Origin: a virus
Length of the DNA stretch: 22,202 nucleotides
Virus record (IMG/VR): IMGVR_UViG_3300021605_000014
Coordinates: 1-22,202 of that record
Direction: 5' to 3' (one strand)
In this document: positions 1 to 20,029 of the stretch, piece by piece
Layout of the letters: every line of letters starts with the position of its first letter
Numbering within the stretch: position 1 is the first letter of the stretch
The notes under the pieces: model-generated
What the model saw: the letters and a program-made list of their open reading frames with translations, nothing else
Told to the model about the DNA's origin: nothing
Databases searched by the model: none
Position numbers and translations under genes: made by a program

Positions 1-314
1 TTCGTACTGACATCAAAAGCAACGTTTTTACCTATGTGACTTTTCGCAAAAGCAACTACGTCACGGATGAATTGTTTATCCAGCAGTGGTTCACCGCCGA
101 AAAAAGCCACCAGAAAAGGTTTGTCCGCCTTAAATCCGTCACTTTTTTGATAACCTTCATAAGCGGCTTTTATGGCTTTTTTCGCAGTTTCTAACGACAT
201 GTAGTTATATTCAGACTCTTTCTTCACATAACAATAAGAGCAAGCAATATTGCAGTTTGCTGTTGTAATTAACATAACGGTTTCAGCGCGAGAAAAGCTC
301 GGAATTGAAATCAT
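1..314 (-). CDS. Radical SAM enzyme, N-terminal part (runs off left edge)
   Basis: This is a partial minus-strand gene of which the first 104 codons are visible; it is open to the window edge. The ATG at 314 follows a GAGGTG ribosome site by about 6 nt. The radical SAM iron-sulfur triad is clear: CNIACSYC gives C21, C25 and C28 (CX3CX2C). A GGEP motif at residues 73-76 is the usual SAM-contacting second strand. The spacing and the MSLETAKKAI segment look like the SPASM/anSME-type peptide-modifying group, but the C-terminal domain that would decide this lies outside the window. It starts 16 nt after the stop of a small tail-fibre-like gene and seems to belong to the same late operon. By family knowledge it should cleave S-adenosylmethionine to a 5'-deoxyadenosyl radical; the substrate is unknown. 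A protein-modifying role on a phage product is inference from position only. Confidence 0.88.
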   Translation of the reverse strand, partial: MISIPSFSRAETVMLITTANCNIACSYCYVKKESEYNYMSLETAKKAIKAAYEGYQKSDGFKADKPFLVAFFGGEPLLDKQFIRDVVAFAKSHIGKNVAFDVST

Positions 315-9562: not shown

Positions 9563-10066
9563 TCAGCGCGTCAAGCCAACACCACCCATAGAAACTCCGC
9601 TGAACGTTCCGTCCTTGACACACTGCCAAACCCTGTCGCTGGCGATAATGCCGATAAGCCATGTGCCTTTTCTGATGATCTGTTCATTGACAATCACATC
9701 AACCGGCATAATGTAGTTCTCCACAATATCGCCGAGTGTTTTGTCCCAGACGGCGTGCTGTATGCCCAAACCGATAGCGTTACCGGCTTCTAATTGCCGC
9801 TTGTATTCAGAGACATCCACAGCCGACAGCAAATCGGTAACGTCAACCTCGACATCGCCGCCAGTCTGAATGGTTTTGTACAGTTTGGCAATTATTCTCA
9901 GCGCCATGTCGCCGACGACAACCTGTTTTTGCAAACTCCTGGTGAACTCATGGCAGGATTTTTCAATTTCCTCGGCAGTCATCCAGTCATCATGCGCATC
10001 CCTGACGTTCGGCTCGTAGACGACGCACAGCACATATTGCTTATCGGCGTTTTTTTGAATAATCAT
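9563..10066 (-). CDS. XkdF-type phage serine protease, displaced from the head genes
   Basis: This 167-aa protein matches the XkdF family (putative head maturation serine protease, Peptidase_S78_2 type). The start ATG at 10066 has AGGAG about 9 nt upstream. The family signature opens with VVYEPNVRDAHDDWMTAEEI (residues 15-34) and closes with KGTWLIGI then FSGVSMGG (133-162). H104 in IQHAVWD and S159 are the likely catalytic pair. About 40 extra residues (near 50-95) separate the two halves compared with the short linker I expect in the family. XkdF normally lies between portal and major capsid; here it lies between tail tube and chaperone genes, more than 6 kb from the capsid gene. It would cleave scaffold and head proteins during maturation. 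Alternatively it has been reused as a tail component. Confidence 0.8.
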   Translation of the reverse strand: MIIQKNADKQYVLCVVYEPNVRDAHDDWMTAEEIEKSCHEFTRSLQKQVVVGDMALRIIAKLYKTIQTGGDVEVDVTDLLSAVDVSEYKRQLEAGNAIGLGIQHAVWDKTLGDIVENYIMPVDVIVNEQIIRKGTWLIGIIASDRVWQCVKDGTFSGVSMGGVGLTR

Positions 10067-10134
10067 TTGTTGATGCTCCTAATTCTTCATTCGGGCAACA
10101 AAAAAAGCAGCAGGATTGCTCCGGCTACTCAATA

Positions 10135-10152
10135 GTTGCTACGTGGTATACT
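10135..10152 (+). promoter_or_regulatory. Extended -10 promoter, copy 1
   Basis: The 18-bp segment GTTGCTACGTGGTATACT is identical to the one at 10678-10695. It contains TGGTATACT, an extended -10 element (TGn followed by TATACT at 10147-10152); no good -35 is seen at 17 bp. A plus-strand gene starts 22 bp downstream with an AGGTGG ribosome site. The exact repeat in front of two unrelated plus-strand genes suggests a shared promoter or operator. Confidence 0.6.
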
Positions 10153-10173
10153 GTTCTAAAAGGTGGTGAAGTC

Positions 10174-10518
10174 ATGACTAATTCTGAAAAGATATTGCGT
10201 TTTCTAAACAGCGACCCCGATAAATACTGGTCAAACGACGAACTTAACACAAAATTCCCAAAATTATCTCCGGAAGAAATAGAAGTGTGTGTCAAGCGGC
10301 TCCAGCACAAAGAACTGATAGCCTTTCACGCCTTCTTTGGTGGATTTACTGTAAGAACGAACAATAGCGGGCTGTTCTATTTCGAGGATGATGCCTCTGA
10401 AAAATCCAAAAAGTGGGCGGAACGTCGTTGGGGATTAACACAACTGCTACTTTCAAATTTTGCTTCCGGCTTAATCGGTTTAGGCGCAGGATACTTGTTG
10501 TTTTACCTTACTCATTGA
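10174..10518 (+). CDS. Winged-helix-like protein with C-terminal membrane anchor (moron candidate)
   Basis: This 114-aa protein is on the strand opposite to the late genes. The ATG at 10174 follows AGGTGG. Residues 1-60 (SEKILRFLNSDPDKYWSNDE, then LSPEEIEVCVKRLQHKELI) read as a small winged-helix domain with a recognition-type helix and wing. A charged linker follows, and residues about 90-112 form one transmembrane helix ending at the C-terminus. It has its own extended -10 promoter. Proteins of this architecture occur in prophages, but I do not recognise a named family. It could be a lysogenically expressed moron, for example a membrane-tethered exclusion or regulatory factor; that role is inference. 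It converges with a 34-codon minus-strand gene, overlapping it by 7 nt. Confidence 0.75.
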   Translation: MTNSEKILRFLNSDPDKYWSNDELNTKFPKLSPEEIEVCVKRLQHKELIAFHAFFGGFTVRTNNSGLFYFEDDASEKSKKWAERRWGLTQLLLSNFASGLIGLGAGYLLFYLTH

Positions 10519-10616
10519 GCTGCGCAACAAAAACCGAGGTATATCCCTCCAAATAACGTCATCAAAGAACTGTAAGTGATCGCTAAATCCCATACCTTGC
10601 GTTCATACAAACTCAT
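10512..10616 (-). CDS. 34-aa putative membrane peptide
   Basis: A short minus-strand reading frame starts with ATG at 10616, preceded by GAGGTAG at a good distance. The product begins MSLYERKVWDL and continues as a single hydrophobic helix with glycine, ending FCCAAQ. Size and composition fit a small phage membrane peptide, and no family is recognised. It lies between two plus-strand genes, converging with the gene at 10174-10518. Support is the ribosome site and hydrophobic character only. Confidence 0.45.
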   Translation of the reverse strand: MSLYERKVWDLAITYSSLMTLFGGIYLGFCCAAQ

Positions 10617-10647
10617 TTTGCTACCTCTTTCGTCGTTTTCTCATTGA

Positions 10648-10680
10648 ACACACCGCCTATCTTTCGATAAGCGGTGTGTT
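10648..10680. repeat. Perfect 10-bp inverted repeat (hairpin)
   Basis: AACACACCGC and GCGGTGTGTT form a perfect 10-bp stem whose inner part can extend by TATC/GATA around one mismatch. Read on the minus strand the loop is GAAA, a stable tetraloop. Neither side has a proper T-run, so it is not a standard terminator. It abuts the 18-bp promoter copy at 10678, so it may be an operator or an RNA stability element. Confidence 0.6.
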
Positions 10681-10695
10681 GCTACGTGGTATACT
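10678..10695 (+). promoter_or_regulatory. Extended -10 promoter, copy 2
   Basis: This second exact copy of GTTGCTACGTGGTATACT carries TATACT at 10690-10695 with a TG one base upstream. It directly follows the 10-bp inverted repeat and lies 34 bp before the ATG of a 51-aa plus-strand gene. The downstream bases differ from copy 1, so the identity is confined to the promoter-like core. Confidence 0.6.
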
Positions 10696-10728
10696 TTACT
10701 TGACGCTCAAGCCCGAAAGGATAAATTG

Positions 10729-10884
10729 ATGGAAGATAAACATCTAGAAATCAAAGCCGCAGAACTCTCAACCGCTCTGCTCTTAGCTTTGATGGCTAAA
10801 AAAAGTCAAGACTTCGAAATGACACATCTAAACAACTGTTTCAATGCAATATTTGACACGGTAATCGCTAAGATAAAAGGCTAA
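10729..10884 (+). CDS. 51-aa hypothetical protein (moron candidate)
   Basis: This small plus-strand gene starts with ATG at 10729, with AAAGGA about 9 nt upstream, and ends TAA at 10882-10884. The product begins MEDKHLEIKAAELSTALLLA and is predicted mostly helical and amphipathic, ending with a basic KIKG; there is no clear membrane segment. It is served by promoter copy 2 and converges head-on with a 36-aa minus-strand gene whose stop begins at the next base. No family is recognised. The good ribosome site, dedicated promoter and clean convergent boundary support it as real. Confidence 0.62.
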   Translation: MEDKHLEIKAAELSTALLLALMAKKSQDFEMTHLNNCFNAIFDTVIAKIKG

Positions 10885-10995
10885 TCAACCAAACAGGCTC
10901 GAGCGTCCACCCATTTCGTCAAGTTCATGGCGCATATTGAAATATATCGCCGCCAATATGCCGACAGCTATTCCTACTATCCAACTTCGTTTCAT
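10885..10995 (-). CDS. 36-aa putative membrane peptide
   Basis: This short minus-strand gene has its ATG at 10995 preceded by GGAAAGGAT. The product starts MKRSWIVGIAVGILAAIYF, a basic N-terminus plus one transmembrane helix, followed by a charged tail. It looks like a single-pass small membrane protein of phage operons. It lies just downstream of the intrinsic terminator at 11017-11047, with no room for a promoter in between, so it would need read-through or antitermination. No family is recognised. Confidence 0.5.
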   Translation of the reverse strand: MKRSWIVGIAVGILAAIYFNMRHELDEMGGRSSLFG

Positions 10996-11016
10996 TATTT
11001 TCACATCCTTTCCCCA

Positions 11017-11047
11017 CGAAAAAACCGCCGGTCTTTCGACGGCGGTT
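11017..11047 (-). terminator. Intrinsic terminator inside the late operon
   Basis: Read on the minus strand, an 8-bp GC-rich stem AACCGCCG/CGGCGGTT (11047-11040 with 11030-11023) is capped by a GAAA-type loop and followed by six T (11024-11019). It begins 7 nt after the stop of the 69-aa gene. It should stop most unmodified transcripts before the small-gene patch. Confidence 0.85.
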
Positions 11048-11054
11048 AGTGTTG

Positions 11055-11264
11055 TTACGCGGCGTGTTTTGGATTTATTTCGTCGACATCACCGACAGGG
11101 ATAACCAAAGTGTTCCCTTCTGGCAGAATAAACGACGCGCAAATTGGGTCATCGTCCAAAATACCGTCGGACACAAACTCTTCCGTTGTGCCGTCCTTTA
11201 GCTTAACTATTACCTTCTCGCCGTAATACTGATCTAATGCCTTTAATTTTTCTCTTGTTGTCAT
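11055..11264 (-). CDS. 69-aa acidic protein, possible immunity partner
   Basis: This gene follows the minor head/nuclease-like gene with a 4-nt gap. The ATG at 11264 has AAGGTGAT close upstream; longer starts run into the previous gene. The product has about 14 acidic and 7 basic residues. It begins MTTREKLKALDQYYGEKVIV, then alternates strands (VIVKLKDGTTEEF, ASFILPEGNTLVIPV) and ends in an acidic DVDEINPKHAA, suggesting a small beta-barrel. The family is not recognised. Immunity proteins for nucleases are often small, acidic and encoded directly downstream of the toxin, so an antitoxin/immunity role is plausible, but this is inferred from position and charge only. An intrinsic terminator follows immediately. 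Confidence 0.75.
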   Translation of the reverse strand: MTTREKLKALDQYYGEKVIVKLKDGTTEEFVSDGILDDDPICASFILPEGNTLVIPVGDVDEINPKHAA

Positions 11265-11268
11265 CGCA

Positions 11269-12708
11269 TCACCTTTTTTCACGTCTCGGGAATACATGCG
11301 TGCCGGTTTTCGAGTAAACAATTATGGCACATCTTGTATCTTCATATTCTTGAGTGTACTGATTCCAAAACTTCCCAACGATTGCGCCGGATTCGATCTT
11401 TTCTCTAATCCCGCCGTCTTTTGACATTGTTAAAACGCCTGTTCCGGATTTGGAGGTCACAAACGCTTGAATGTTATCGATAGTCATGTAACTCGGTTTG
11501 AATCCCGTATCATTAAGGCGTTCGTTGTTCAAGGCCAACTTGTATTTTTCAGTTCCTAATACATGTTTGTCCTGTTTTTGTTGGCGCAGTTTAAGTGGCA
11601 GTTCTCCGCTGTCTATTTTCCGCTTTATGTCATCTGTAGCAGCGGAAAATTGTTGTAAATTTATCTCGCTTACGATTATACCACTACCAACCGCGTCTGT
11701 CGAATTAGTTTCGCCGGTACTCTCTACCAACGAACAACAGCAGCGGCACCTTGGATGGAGCGGCGGGTATTCTATCTTGCCGCCTAGCGGGTCGTCGAAT
11801 TTTCCTTTAACATCCGCCAGCTTGCCGCTCATCGATGCGCATACCGGACATAACCGGTCATCAGGGGTTAGTATCCATTTTTTCCGGAAACTGTTATTTA
11901 TTAATCCTTTGTCGAACGCGGCGTTCCACGCGAACTGCTGTCCGGCATTTGCCGCCCGCATCGTTTCTGTCCGGGCAATGTTCTTGGCACGGTCGCGGAT
12001 TATGCCGTCAGAATATTTCGCTGTCAGCTTGTCGATTTTATCAGCCGTTAATTTTCCGGTCTTGACCAGCTCATCCCTGAACTTCTCCACCCGCTTGGCT
12101 TGAAGCTCAGTCAGCCCGACAACGTTCCGTATCATCCGCGCCTGTTCGTAGGGATGGCCGCCGTGTTTGAAAGCATCGTTCAAGGTGTTGCGGATGTTCT
12201 GGCGGGTCTGGTCAGATATTTGTTTGACCAAATCCGCCCCGAAATTACTGATTGCCTGATTGGCCAGCGGATTGCGCATGTTGAACCCCAAATCTATTCG
12301 GAATTCTTTACCGGCAAGCTTCCCGCTAACCAATCCGTTTTTATCCGCCGCAAGACGCATAGCGCTTCGACCACGCGCCGCTGCGGCATTAATAGTGGCA
12401 ACTACACCTGCGGCAGCGATAACAGCCGCCTGCGGCATAATCCCAGCAGCTGTATCCGTAAGTATACTGCCGATTTTTGCCGCAAGCTGTGCCGCGTCTT
12501 CTTGGATCAACGATTCTACGCTTTTGCCTTTTAGCAAGGCGGTAATCAGCTCCCGGGCGCGGGCGTTGTTCTGCGCCTGCTTAAATGCCTGATACAGCAA
12601 CGCGGATAATTTTATTTCACGCTTGTCCGCAAGTTGCAGGATCAGATTCCAGTCGGGCTGCATCTTCTCGATTTTCAGCTTGATCAGCTTCAATAAGTTC
12701 TTTTCCAC
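11269..12708 (-). CDS. Minor head protein (SPP1 gp7/Mu gpF type) with C-terminal BECR-like nuclease domain
   Basis: This protein is about 479 aa. The start is uncertain: GTG 12708 is chosen because of an upstream AGCAGGG; TTG 12738 and ATG 12663 are alternatives. The central region (about residues 150-340) is a head morphogenesis domain of the SPP1 gp7/Mu gpF type, shown by IARTETMRAANAGQQ, WILTPDDRLCPVC and the closing PPLHPRCRC with its cysteine/histidine cluster. After about residue 368 comes a separate C-terminal unit: KQDKHVLGTEKY, then PSYMTIDNI and finally KTGTHVFP, in the order typical of phage Barnase/EndoU/colicin E5/RelE (BECR) nuclease-like domains fused to head proteins. Such a protein could ride in the capsid and act in the infected cell. 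It lies after the tail tube genes, not after the portal. Nuclease activity is not demonstrated. Confidence 0.82.
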   Translation of the reverse strand: MEKNLLKLIKLKIEKMQPDWNLILQLADKREIKLSALLYQAFKQAQNNARARELITALLKGKSVESLIQEDAAQLAAKIGSILTDTAAGIMPQAAVIAAAGVVATINAAAARGRSAMRLAADKNGLVSGKLAGKEFRIDLGFNMRNPLANQAISNFGADLVKQISDQTRQNIRNTLNDAFKHGGHPYEQARMIRNVVGLTELQAKRVEKFRDELVKTGKLTADKIDKLTAKYSDGIIRDRAKNIARTETMRAANAGQQFAWNAAFDKGLINNSFRKKWILTPDDRLCPVCASMSGKLADVKGKFDDPLGGKIEYPPLHPRCRCCCSLVESTGETNSTDAVGSGIIVSEINLQQFSAATDDIKRKIDSGELPLKLRQQKQDKHVLGTEKYKLALNNERLNDTGFKPSYMTIDNIQAFVTSKSGTGVLTMSKDGGIREKIESGAIVGKFWNQYTQEYEDTRCAIIVYSKTGTHVFPRREKR

Positions 12709-13387
12709 AGTCACCCTGCTCTTTTTTCGTTTCGTCAACCGGCTCTATTTCTACTTTGTCGACCCGTAAATAGATCCCGCCGCTACCCTGTATTTCCAGC
12801 GGAGCTTCAATCAATCCGTCTACCGGCGACGATATTGTTTGACTGCTGCATAAGCCATAGCCTTCGAGACTTACCTGATTAGCAACGTCCATATACAACA
12901 CGCACAGCACCGATTTATCAAACCAGTTCGCGCGGTATGTTTTGCCGCCGTCGTCAGTAACCAAATCTTCAAGCGTCCAGAACTTGTCCGCAGATGCTGT
13001 CCAGCCTTTTAGCGTGTACTGGAACTCGCGCCAGCCTGCACTTTCAAAAGTGGTGCAGTCGGCTGTTTCGCCGTCAAGGCTCGCTTCCCAGTTCGAACAA
13101 CCGCCAACTTGTTTTAGCGTCCAGTAGTTGCCGGCAACGGTTATCGCTCCGACTACATCAGCGTCAAACACTACATAGCCTCGGGCATGCTGCACGACGT
13201 AATTTATCACCGGCTTTACTCCGGCAACCAGCACAACCACCGGTACACTGTCATCAAAATGCCGGTACAGCTCGTTATTCACCCTGAACATTCTTTTGCT
13301 TCCAGCAACAGCGACCATCGGTGTCGCCGGAAATACTACTGTTTTATCCTGCGCGTAAAATGCGCCAACTTTTCCTGCAAGTGCCAT
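12617..13387 (-). CDS. Large tail tube-like protein
   Basis: This 256-aa protein starts with ATG at 13387 after AGGAGGAAAAC. The first seven residues (MALAGKV) repeat the start of the preceding 129-aa tube protein (MALAGKT). Around residues 97-136 it matches that protein again: SNWEASLDGETADCTTFESAGWREF against SWELPMDADMIDITSFDSNGWREF, both followed by LKxWT. It therefore looks like a second tail tube-type fold with an insertion of about 80 residues after the N-terminus. The last about 40 codons form an acidic, low-complexity tail that overlaps the next gene in another frame. It may be a decorated tube subunit or a tube initiator/terminator. Its role relative to the smaller protein is unknown. 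Confidence 0.78.
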   Translation of the reverse strand: MALAGKVGAFYAQDKTVVFPATPMVAVAGSKRMFRVNNELYRHFDDSVPVVVLVAGVKPVINYVVQHARGYVVFDADVVGAITVAGNYWTLKQVGGCSNWEASLDGETADCTTFESAGWREFQYTLKGWTASADKFWTLEDLVTDDGGKTYRANWFDKSVLCVLYMDVANQVSLEGYGLCSSQTISSPVDGLIEAPLEIQGSGGIYLRVDKVEIEPVDETKKEQGDCGKELIEADQAENREDAARLESDPATCGQA

Positions 13388-16617: not shown

Positions 16618-17733
16618 TTAACGCCCTCCCTTTTGTTCTTGCTTGTACTTCTCGTACAAAGCCGGGTTGTTTTTCCAGACCTCAGTGCGTGCTGTCGCCT
16701 TGGTCAGCTTCGGGTTGGACTTAACAAGCTCCTCAGCTTTAACGTCAGCCTCAGCGAGCGCCGAACCGACCACGCCGGAACGCCCCGAACCGGACTCTTT
16801 GAAGAATTGCGAGTTTGCAGCTACTGCCGCATTTGCCACCATGGTCTTTAACAGATTTTCAAAATCCGTCTCCGGCATTACCGCTTTTGCGCTTTTGAGC
16901 ATCTTCACCATTTCAACAGGATCACCGACAAGTCCCAGCTCGGTTACTTTGTTCAGCAAAACTGCATCGGTTTGGTCGCCAACCATCTTAGCGATGTCTG
17001 CCTGTGCTTTGCTGATGGTCTCGCCTTGCGAGGTAATAGTTGCGCCTTGGGTAGCAATGGTCTCGCCTTGGGTCTTGATGATTGCGTCTTTGACCTCAAT
17101 AGCTTTAGCTACTTCAACCATCACTTCATCTTGGATTGATTTTTTCAGGGCTTGTTTTTCAATGTCAGTCATGTCTTCCTCCTTGTTAATTATGTTTTTT
17201 GATGGGTCAGTATCTTTTTCAGGTTCCGGGTCAGTGTCGGCTATTCCCAACACTTTTTTGAGTTGCTCGAACGCTGTCCTTAGTAATGACTCAGTGTCAG
17301 CGCTCAATTTCTTACCTGCCTTTTCAACAAGCACGTCCGCGCTCAGAATAGATTGCTGCAAATCGTTTATTTCATGCGCCATTTGCTGTTGCTTGAAAGG
17401 TCTGTCCGATAATGCCAGTTCAATTAAAGAATTCTTGAAAGCTGTGACAAGCTCGTTTACTTTGTCATCAACAACCTTACGCCGCTCGGGCGTAATTACC
17501 GGCGGCGCATTGCTTTCCATAGCCGCGTTTTCATTGATGGCGTTGTCCGTAGCGTTTCGCCCCATCAACCAGTCAATAAAGGAACTACGCAAGGGATTTT
17601 CATCCGGGGTTTCTCCTTTTTTCACTTTTTCACCTCCTTTCTTTGCAGATTTCATAACAATAAAGTTCCGTTTGTTTGCCGGATCGTTAACTAATGACAC
17701 CTCGTTGATTTGAACATCGTACAGTTCAGCCAT
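16618..17733 (-). CDS. Scaffold-like protein with XkdF-type N-terminus but no protease domain
   Basis: This 371-aa protein lies where XkdF and scaffold genes normally lie. Its ATG shares an A with the portal stop (TAATG). Residues 1-34 (DVQINEVSLVNDPANKRNF) are the short leader that precedes the protease domain in many XkdF/scaffold proteins, yet the catalytic VVYEPxxxDAHxD region is absent. The rest is highly charged and helical. A block near residues 218-248 has a repeated TQGETI/TQGATI/SQGETI pattern with a 42-bp near-repeat, typical of coiled coil. The C-terminus ends NNPALYEKYKQEQKGG, common in phage capsid scaffolds. The missing protease domain seems to be the separate gene at 9563-10066. 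Confidence 0.75.
   Translation of the reverse strand: MAELYDVQINEVSLVNDPANKRNFIVMKSAKKGGEKVKKGETPDENPLRSSFIDWLMGRNATDNAINENAAMESNAPPVITPERRKVVDDKVNELVTAFKNSLIELALSDRPFKQQQMAHEINDLQQSILSADVLVEKAGKKLSADTESLLRTAFEQLKKVLGIADTDPEPEKDTDPSKNIINKEEDMTDIEKQALKKSIQDEVMVEVAKAIEVKDAIIKTQGETIATQGATITSQGETISKAQADIAKMVGDQTDAVLLNKVTELGLVGDPVEMVKMLKSAKAVMPETDFENLLKTMVANAAVAANSQFFKESGSGRSGVVGSALAEADVKAEELVKSNPKLTKATARTEVWKNNPALYEKYKQEQKGGR
17012..17082. repeat. Coiled-coil repeat in scaffold gene
   Basis: GGTCTCGCCTTG occurs at 17017-17028 and again at 17059-17070, 42 bp (two heptads) apart, with a diverged copy between them. It encodes the repeated TQGETI-type units of the scaffold-like protein. Confidence 0.75.
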
Positions 17734-19114
17734 TATCCGCTACCTCCTAATCCTTTACCGAGATTGAACATTTTCGCTATCTCCTTGCGCTGTTCACCGT
17801 CAAGGTTCTCGATCGCGCCCTGAATATGCTTTTCCAAATCCGCGTCGTCTTCGGGCTGCTCACTGGCATCTGCTGCTTCTTTGGGTATTGGCGGCAGATT
17901 GCCAACGTCCCGCAAATGCGCCTCAAGCTCTCTGTCCGGTGTCAGCATCCCGGCATCGGTCAGCGTTTTGACGTATGTCGACAAATCTCTCAGGTTCGGA
18001 TTCTCAACATCGCCGTGCTTGATGCATGGGAACGGATAACCAACGCCGTTCAGGCGCATCAAAGTTGGAATCAGCTTTCTGTTCAACTCCGTTTCGATAA
18101 TGTCCAGTATTGCGCCGAGCGCATAGCTAAACATCGTCGTCTTATCGCTGGACAGCGCAAACGAACCAACGTTCGACTGTCCAAGCATTATGAAGTCCGC
18201 CAACACGCTCATGAGAATGCGTTTGTCCCAGCGTTCAATAATCAGCGTGGTATCAAACATTCTCGAACCACCGGTAGACAACAGCGACAGTTTAAACCCG
18301 GTTGGATTACCCTGTTCGTCAAGTTCTGCCGGAATAATACATCCGGCTGTTTCGTCGTTTCGTATTTGCGACAGGTACGCTTCAAGATGCTCGAACAAAG
18401 CTACCTGACCGCTAGTTAAATCGTCTGCTTCCAGCAACTTTGGCGGCACTTGAATTACCGGCAACCCTGCCAAATCGCGCTCACAGCCAATGCCCTCAAT
18501 CTCTTCGATGTTCTTCTTGAAGACGTAACTTCTATACGCGTTTCTCAAAAAACTTCTGCCTTCCGGATTATCGCGGTTTGGCTCGGTTTTGAAATGCAAG
18601 CACTTTTCATAAGGTATTTCCAGCATCTCACCCTGCGGAATTGTTAACTGACATACAGCTAATATCTTGTCGCGCTCTTCTAACTCGTCAAACACCCAGC
18701 GCCAGATTGTGTCCTGTGACCGTATACCAATCTTCCTTATCCCGATTTTGCCGTCGTTAAACTTGCTTCCTTCCGAAAACCGCCGCCGCCTGAACACCAT
18801 CTCCATGATGCTGTAACCGTATTCGATCATCGTGCAAGCCTCGGCTATCACATCGTCGAAACTGTTGACGGCATCCGAAAATAAACATTCCTCGACAAAA
18901 GAGGCATTAGCTACGTCGCCAGCATCTTCACTAGCAGGCTGCACCGACCATTTTGCATTACGGATAAGCATCTTCATGCAAAACAGCAACGCCCCAATCG
19001 TAGCGTCGTTGTCCTTCATTTCGCGATACTTGAGCATCCCCTGCCTGCCGACAAGCTCCTGCTGCCACTCGTCTCGAATAACATGTGTTATCGCCGGGGC
19101 TTTTTTATCCCCGA
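17733..19114 (-). CDS. Portal protein, exon 2 (DUF935-like)
   Basis: This is the main portal coding part. The uninterrupted reading frame with a normal ATG begins at 19037, but clear portal sequence continues upstream in the same frame: GDKKAPAITHVIRDEWQQEL to a point near 19114, beyond which a TAG (19135-19137) blocks the frame. No ribosome site precedes the 19037 ATG. Portal features: KYREMKDNDATIGALLFCMK, then EYGYSIMEMVFRRRR, PEGRSFLRNAYRSYVFKK and AGLPVIQVPP. Joined to exon 1 at 19340-19406 it gives about 482 codons, a normal portal length. The portal dodecamer is the DNA entry and exit vertex. The gene is cut by a short RNA element; precise 3' junction is uncertain (19115/19114 or 19124/19123 both keep frame). 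Confidence 0.88.
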
Positions 19115-19339: not shown

Positions 19340-19406
19340 ACCCACCGTATTGCCTGAAACCGCCTCTGCCGGTCTGACTTAAAAACGTTTTTTTGTCACT
19401 AATCAT
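19340..19406 (-). CDS. Portal protein, exon 1
   Basis: ATG at 19406 overlaps the stop of the HNH gene and has GGAGGTG about 9 nt upstream, inside the last HNH codons. It encodes 22 codons plus one base: MISDKKTFLSQTGRGGFRQY followed by GG. Unspliced, it would end shortly after at a TAG within the intron, giving a useless peptide of about 29 aa. The phase (one base of the next codon) fits exon 2 entry at codon position two, restoring an open frame of 1449 nt. The motif GRGGFRQYG is repeated with synonymous differences at the N-terminus of the upstream HNH gene. Confidence 0.72.
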
Positions 19407-20029
19407 GCACTCGCCCACCTCCAGACGTAACCTTTGTAACTTTTTATTTTTCCGTTGCAACACTTCCTGATGGTTTTCACATTTATGCCGTTTTCTTGTG
19501 CTGCCCGTTTTGAATAATCGTAATGTTTAACGACTTCTCCAGACAAATCAAGCTGGGTTATAGGTCTTGCCCTTGAATTTCCAGCGCCTGCCATTCTTTT
19601 GGAATGTCTTTTCCTAAGCTCGAAAGTGTTGGCTGAAGCATTCATTTTTAGCATGTGTTCAATAGTTGGATTGTGACCTAGAACACGATTTCTATGTATT
19701 GCTTGTTCTTTTGAAGTAGCCCATTCTAGGTTGCTAACATCATTGTTCGCTCTGTCCCCGTCTTTGTGGTTCACTGTCGGCTTGTTCTCAGGATTAGGCA
19801 CAAAAGCGAAAGCTACAAGACGCGCAACACTCCTGTATAATTTTATCCCTTTGTTGCTTAAACCAACCACTTTATACCCATACTTACATTGGGGAATTAA
19901 TAATTTATTGCGTTTCTCGCTCCAAACTTCCCCGACACTATTGACCGAGTACCCTTCTACGCCGAATTGCCGGAAGCCCCCGCGGCCAATAGCGGTAGTC
20001 ATCAACTTACGTCTGTCTGTTTCTGCCAC
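19403..20029 (-). CDS. NUMOD4-HNH-NUMOD1 homing endonuclease with portal-like N-terminus
   Basis: This 208-aa protein starts with GTG at 20029, with GGAGG 7 nt upstream inside the end of the terminase gene. Residues about 22-70 are a NUMOD4 domain (VEGYSVNSVGEVWS). The HNH site follows with NHKDGDRANNDVSNLEWAT: H88, N95/N96 and N100. Residues about 147-206 are a NUMOD1 DNA-binding domain (TQLDLSGEVVKHYDYSKRAA ... GYVWRW). The first 23 residues are not part of the endonuclease: they include GRGGFRQFG, which recurs at the start of portal exon 1. The gene has thus captured a portal 5' end, or was inserted into one. It probably cuts intronless/insertless portal alleles to spread. Confidence 0.9.
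   Translation of the reverse strand: MAETDRRKLMTTAIGRGGFRQFGVEGYSVNSVGEVWSEKRNKLLIPQCKYGYKVVGLSNKGIKLYRSVARLVAFAFVPNPENKPTVNHKDGDRANNDVSNLEWATSKEQAIHRNRVLGHNPTIEHMLKMNASANTFELRKRHSKRMAGAGNSRARPITQLDLSGEVVKHYDYSKRAAQENGINVKTIRKCCNGKIKSYKGYVWRWASA

Follow-up and report, generated by a model that had tools for sequence, protein, structure and literature searches.

In the complete viral record IMGVR_UViG_3300021605_000014 (22,202 bases, in the following called the window), we analyzed two small plus-strand genes, orfA and orfB, which run against the surrounding late genes. Both are probably morons and would be fresh protein examples of a kind of gene that has already been described. In its full form, the reading preferred here is that orfA and orfB are morons with extended -10 promoters in a switch of the noncontiguous operon type, probably in a temperate phage. 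To this full reading we assign about an even chance. The locus is broader than described in an earlier note on this DNA, as it also includes two convergent mini-ORFs (s1 and s2), several hairpins, a gene pair consisting of a MuF-Ntox50 gene and g11055, and a third promoter-like site.

Features of the orfA/orfB locus, ordered by position in the 22,202-base window
Feature	Position	Strand	Description
hairpin	10105..10130	-	terminator-like, late strand, T run; directly upstream of P1; z -3.1
18-mer copy 1 (P1)	10135..10152	+	extended -10 TGGTATACT at 10144-10152, without -35
orfA	10174..10518	+	114 aa orphan; AAAAGGTGGTGAAGTCATG; predicted winged-helix-like domain and long C-terminal hydrophobic helix
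s1	10512..10616	-	34 aa hydrophobic mini-ORF, late strand; 7-bp overlap with the 3' end of orfA
hairpin	10647..10680	.	15-nt arms, very stable, without T tract; z -6.4 (minus strand)
18-mer copy 2 (P2)	10678..10695	+	extended -10 TGGTATACT at 10687-10695, without -35
orfB	10729..10884	+	51 aa orphan; GAAAGGATAAATTGATG; alternative TTG start 10726
s2	10885..10995	-	36 aa hydrophobic mini-ORF, late strand; adjoins orfB directly, tail to tail
hairpin	11024..11043	-	terminator-like, T tract, late strand, after g11055; weak, z -1.7
g11055	11055..11264	-	69 aa; probable MuF-toxin immunity protein; Sm-like predicted fold
MuF head protein with C-terminal Ntox50	11269..12738	-	YxiD-like RNase domain; Pfam, PDB
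TCGACA-17-TGGTATAAT	11675..11703	-	promoter-like, inside MuF gene, upstream of g11055

The earlier note had started from an 18-bp sequence, GTTGCTACGTGGTATACT, which was said to occur exactly twice, each time with an extended -10 and followed by a gene with a ribosome site, in an orientation opposite to the late genes. The analysis bears this out. Exactly two copies, both on the plus strand, are present in the whole record, each of them ends in TGGTATACT, orfA and orfB follow with good ribosome sites, and the neighbouring genes are located on the minus strand. No further match with up to three mismatches was found in the record (shuffle expectation 0.01), and apart from GTTGCTACGTGGTATACT the window contains no exact direct repeat of at least 17 nt. 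Of 300 dinucleotide-shuffled sequences, one had a longest direct repeat of 18 nt and three had one of 17 nt; in the others it was shorter. The search for the 18-mer elsewhere, which had also been proposed, revealed no exact match in IMG/VR. Among 299 genomes sampled from one phylum, it was detected with up to two mismatches in 8 genomes compared with 14 for the reversed control; this is no excess, and the 18-mer is not a common motif across this sample.

Extended -10 sites are clustered at this locus. The pattern TGGTATA[AC]T was identified at three sites in the window, namely in both 18-mer copies and at a minus-strand site at 11683, all inside 1.56 kb. Shuffled sequences contained on average 0.21 such sites; at least three sites were reached in 1 of 300 shuffles and three sites within 1,560 bp in none of the 300. 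Of the promoter core postulated in the earlier note, the extended -10 is present at both copies, whereas a -35 is missing at both: at the usual distance from P1 and P2, the best candidates agree in 3 of 6 positions (spacing 15) and 2 of 6 positions (spacing 17). A strict sigma-70 scan did not include P1 and P2 among its listed sites. Since no -35 is present, the name promoter is owed entirely to the extended -10. If transcription starts 6-7 nt past the -10, the leaders would measure about 15 nt for P1 and about 27 nt for P2, with good ribosome sites in both. The flanks of P1 and P2 are unlike apart from the 18-mer, in which the identity continues for 9 bp ahead of the extended -10. A common binding factor is therefore possible.

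Convincing relatives of orfA were found neither in the IMG/VR viral contigs nor in a genome collection of 84,980 species or in 50,697 phage records, and profile and sequence searches in PHROGs, Pfam, PADLOC, NCBIfam and the PDB sequences gave nothing convincing (with no match in the PADLOC defence library), whereby the pattern-based scans used for orfA and orfB are sensitive to close relatives only. The same holds for orfB in PHROGs, Pfam, PADLOC, NCBIfam, the 50,697 phage records and the IMG/VR viral contigs. Two PHROG matches of orfB (E 0.054 and 0.13) were attributed to chance, as was a PADLOC match (E 0.0047) that aligns 26 residues to a profile with 917 positions. When codon statistics derived from the late genes are applied, the own frame ranks as the best of six for both genes, barely for orfA (-0.01 vs -0.05) and at 0.19 vs 0.01 for orfB. 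The G+C content amounts to 0.42 for orfA and 0.38 for orfB compared with 0.48 for the window.

For OrfA, a winged-helix domain combined with a membrane anchor had been suggested. The AlphaFold2 model, calculated from the single sequence, is of low confidence (mean pLDDT 63) and contains the elements H3-13, H21-27, H33-45, E53-55, E58-62, E68-70 and H76-113. The predicted order of these elements is in line with the first part of the suggestion. Foldseek added weak matches, none of them below E 0.27, and many of these are winged-helix proteins (DsrD, MepR, Fur, HxlR and Zalpha, which we take to belong to this class). The second part fared less well, as the C-terminal helix reaches a best 19-residue hydropathy of 1.55, which is borderline for a membrane segment; a membrane anchor is therefore plausible, not established. 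In the preferred reading, OrfA is most likely membrane-associated with a winged-helix-like cytoplasmic domain and would target the host or incoming phages; for the exclusion or signalling role considered in the earlier note, PADLOC gave no match.

Both plus-strand genes converge with a mini-ORF of the late strand. s1 and s2 each possess a ribosome site (a good one in the case of s1) and one hydrophobic stretch with a best 19-residue hydropathy of 1.41 and 1.50, respectively, which is borderline for a membrane segment. The codon statistics place the own frame first among six for s2 and not for s1. On the minus strand, neither s1 nor s2 has a recognisable promoter, and a family search with s1 gave no match. 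The most stable of the hairpins is located directly upstream of P2 and shares 3 nt with the second 18-mer. The analysis with Rfam at gathering thresholds revealed nothing in addition. The order hairpin, P1, orfA/s1, hairpin, P2, orfB/s2, hairpin shows that one type of unit is present twice in tandem.

The late genes of the window include a Mu-like portal and a capsid protein of phrog_1005, and the orfA/orfB cassette is bordered by minus-strand terminator-like hairpins. Capsid-based scans revealed distant relatives only, with at most 45% identity. Matches to orfA or orfB at E 1e-3 were not detected in any of 112 loci, mostly from related phages with such distant capsid proteins (at most 45% identical). 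For a comparison of the tail-tube junction, three loci were usable (L040, L013 and L063), while L068 was inspected and not resolved. In these three loci the next gene begins 24-32 bp past the second tail-tube gene, without an orfA/orfB block. Judged from these junctions, the block is missing from the equivalent place in related phages, as is expected for morons. No plus-strand terminator was recognised behind orfA or orfB, as the hairpins either serve the minus strand or lack a T tract. An own terminator is a common but not universal feature of morons. The earlier classification of the two genes as morons agrees with the promoter-like elements, the orientation, the lower G+C content and the missing relatives in related phages, but not with the missing plus-strand terminator, and it is therefore given here as probable only.

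The MuF gene is located upstream of the capsid gene in 30 of the 30 loci with both genes (REARRANGEMENT), and the same was observed for the head protease (31 of 31). In the window, both follow the tail-tube genes, with orfA and orfB between them. MuF and head protease are displaced from the portal-scaffold region to this place (segments 9563-12738 and 16618-19037). The protease and scaffold parts, both of which match phrog_3017, are encoded by two genes separated by about 6.5 kb. In the Aeribacillus phage AP45 the MuF-Ntox50 gene is likewise located after the capsid gene. The displacement of MuF is thus not unique to the window, and the assignment of the MuF toxin by its domains holds despite the location away from the portal. 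Directly behind the MuF gene of another locus (L057:6996-7322, minus strand) we observed an antisense ORF that encodes 108 aa, is hydrophobic in an N-terminal stretch and has TATACT upstream, which is a possible parallel to the layout of orfA and orfB; it came from one of the 16 loci that contain both MuF and protease, by a crude filter and judged by eye. A scripted search for antisense genes in 75 relatives gave 61 noisy candidates in 30 loci, which entered no count.

The cassette adjoins the MuF-Ntox50 gene and g11055. The MuF gene matches the Pfam families Phage_Mu_F (2.8e-10) and Ntox50 (6e-13), both above the cut-off, and the PDB match of its Ntox50 domain is the YxiD toxin domain (E 1.2e-5). 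Its start is uncertain, as the ORF overlaps the preceding gene. A small gene directly downstream of the Ntox50 toxin was present in all of 11 other fetched phage loci, which were picked from 37 matching records to span the domain variants. g11055 was aligned with 4 of these small proteins and shows 20-23% identity and five invariant columns. Its model (pLDDT 78) consists of one helix and five strands, and Sm/Lsm/Hfq proteins dominate the Foldseek list, with a best E of 1.9e-3; phmmer against the PDB detected no relative. In the YxiD-YxxD system, the available part of the report describes an Sm-like fold for the immunity protein YxxD (PMC12700104). The same fold is predicted for g11055, and the likeness to YxxD is one of predicted fold. 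Because of the Sm-like model, the Sm-like fold of YxxD and the small gene behind the toxin in 11 of 11 loci, we read g11055 as the protein that probably confers immunity to the MuF toxin. The MuF-Ntox50 gene and its small downstream gene fit the family of MuF polymorphic toxins as presented in the part of the report available (PMC5576092). The position far from the portal gene, a usual but not defining neighbour, is different.

The site TCGACA-17-TGGTATAAT is located about 416 nt before the start of g11055. Within it, positions 11675-11691 on the minus strand form the best further match to the 18-mer, with one base missing and two others different. This score was equalled in 14 of 300 shuffles, and kinship as a third copy is not claimed. 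For the extended -10 itself, none of 500 synonymous shuffles of the MuF gene of the window matched the score. Among the other MuF-Ntox50 genes (L125-L134, several of them close relatives; PhiSepi-HH1 was left out), a single extended -10 was found at -342 to -458 in 9 of 10, Javan210 being without any; here the observed score was reached by 41-176 of 500 synonymous shuffles per gene. In most MuF-Ntox50 genes the extended -10 sites encode one shared peptide position. Together with the frequent matches in shuffles, this means that a conserved protein motif may account for much of the signal, and the conservation of an internal promoter in MuF-Ntox50 genes is at most suggestive. In PhiSepi-HH1, where the toxin is a separate ORF, TGGTAAAAT is present at -341 and -170.

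According to the preferred reading, two accessory genes would have come into the late region, each bringing its extended -10 promoter. By their orientation and neighbours, orfA and orfB run antisense inside an operon that belongs to the opposite phase, which is the arrangement of a noncontiguous operon. In a lysogen the late operon would be silent, and P1 and P2 would therefore drive the production of OrfA and OrfB. Upon induction, antiterminated late transcription would read through the hairpins and run antisense over orfA and orfB, thereby lowering their expression. The same transcription would yield s1 and s2 as candidate late-expressed partners or inhibitors. From the site inside the MuF gene, the g11055 immunity protein could be made in the lysogen without the toxin. 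Lysogeny is assumed here, because the genes inspected on this 22-kb fragment included neither a recognisable integrase nor a recognisable repressor. MuF genes have been associated with temperate phages, with p = 0.055 for the toxin-bearing ones in the available part of the study (PMC5576092), which favours lysogeny here only indirectly. The pairs orfA/s1 and orfB/s2 are no more than candidates for defence and counter-defence and are not filed as such pairs. A farther-reaching version, in which two tandem switches of unseen families, each with a defence gene and a late neutraliser, are joined with the MuF immunity gene in one lysogeny regulon by the common extended -10 core, is unlikely in our view.

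Similar layouts have been described for several phages, here compared on the basis of the available parts of the respective reports. In the Pseudomonas phage JBD26, the defence gene of the Tab/anti-Tab pair is, like orfA and orfB, a small orphan on the opposite strand inside the late operon. Its own promoter is on in the prophage, and the neighbouring small late-strand gene acts as counter-defence (PMC10884400). Tab/anti-Tab sits between the terminase genes, and the inhibition of Tab by anti-Tab was demonstrated there. In contrast, orfA and orfB are unrelated orphans in two tandem units with a common promoter core and are known from sequence alone. In phage phi80, the defence gene of the Tai/Ati pair is reversed within the Q-driven late operon, which makes the inhibitor, and its authors predict further pairs of this kind (PMC11364771). 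Neither orfA nor orfB hit a family in the searched libraries, and the likeness to Tai/Ati concerns the layout. Tha and Ith of the S. aureus phage 80alpha are overlapping antisense genes which toggle between lysogeny and lysis, as proposed here; there, the defence gene belongs to the cI operon, and it is the inhibitor that is transcribed from a promoter of its own, which is the reverse of the situation in the window (PMC11087260). The pid moron of P22, an 86-aa ORFan, resembles orfA and orfB as a small orphan in the late region which is directed against its neighbours and has its own promoter (PMC3573128). It differs by a Rho-independent terminator behind the gene and by its expression in the carrier state, and a shared promoter repeat is not mentioned in the available text.

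The same pid gene and STMMW_20121, a moron antisense to lytic genes with its own promoter (PMC7067206, available in part), show that antisense morons with own promoters are described, and orfA and orfB might thus be ordinary constitutive lysogenic-conversion genes with no partners at all. s1 and s2 would then be accidental ORFs or late peptides with no connection to these genes, for which the weak codon support and the missing family match of s1 also speak. However, each mini-ORF has a ribosome site and lies tail to tail with a plus-strand gene, one overlapping and one abutting it, and the own frame of s2 is the best of six. We consider this explanation somewhat unlikely. The roles might also be exchanged, with s1 and s2 as small membrane toxins of a type I toxin-antitoxin-like system and the plus-strand transcripts as antisense antitoxin RNAs which bear ORFs incidentally. 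For clostridial prophages, type I toxins 34-35 aa long have been described together with antisense RNAs that converge and overlap with them, in the parts of the literature available, and s1 (34 aa) and s2 (36 aa) contain a single hydrophobic stretch each. On the other hand, the lysine-rich C-termini described in these parts for toxins of C. difficile phages are missing in s1 and s2, while orfA and orfB possess ribosome sites and open frames. As no toxin promoter was found, s1 and s2 were not filed as type I toxin-antitoxin genes, and such a system appears very unlikely.

The 18-mer could be an operator instead of, or besides, a promoter, if a phage or host protein binds the partly symmetric GTTGCTACGTGGTA (TAC-GTG-GTA) and co-regulates both genes. 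The identity of the GTTGCTAC part, 9 bp on the upstream side of the extended -10, exceeds what a promoter needs, and the other flanks differ. The symmetry is short, however, and the similar site in the MuF gene, with its missing and changed bases and a score also reached by shuffled sequences, does not favour this explanation, to which we give a small chance. It is extremely unlikely that two unexpressed ORFs and an accidental repeat came together by chance. Although neither protein gave a homologue and an 18-nt direct repeat in 1 of 300 shuffles is rare, not impossible, both copies end in an identical extended -10, and each is immediately followed by an ORF with its ribosome site.

It was discovered only recently that prophages place defence genes antisense in their late operons. 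The locus offers two adjacent orphan candidates, with a recognisable common promoter core and candidate partners for both. If the switch reading is true, the layout of reverse gene, extended -10 and convergent mini-ORF could be used for a homology-free search for such pairs. The internal site of the MuF-Ntox50 gene would provide a testable answer to the question of how a lysogen could have immunity at a time when the late toxin gene is not expressed.

In addition, some observations were made outside the cassette. The start of a gene for a radical SAM/SPASM peptide maturase (3-314, minus strand; best match the PapB family, below cut-off) is located directly behind a tail-fibre-like gene and is cut by the contig end. 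An HNH endonuclease gene (19403-20029, minus strand) was identified between the large terminase and the portal. Among the Ntox50 loci, a phage labelled Campylobacter (L130, CJLB-5) carries a toxin domain which shares 78% identity with its counterpart in a Streptococcus phage; its host label may be wrong.
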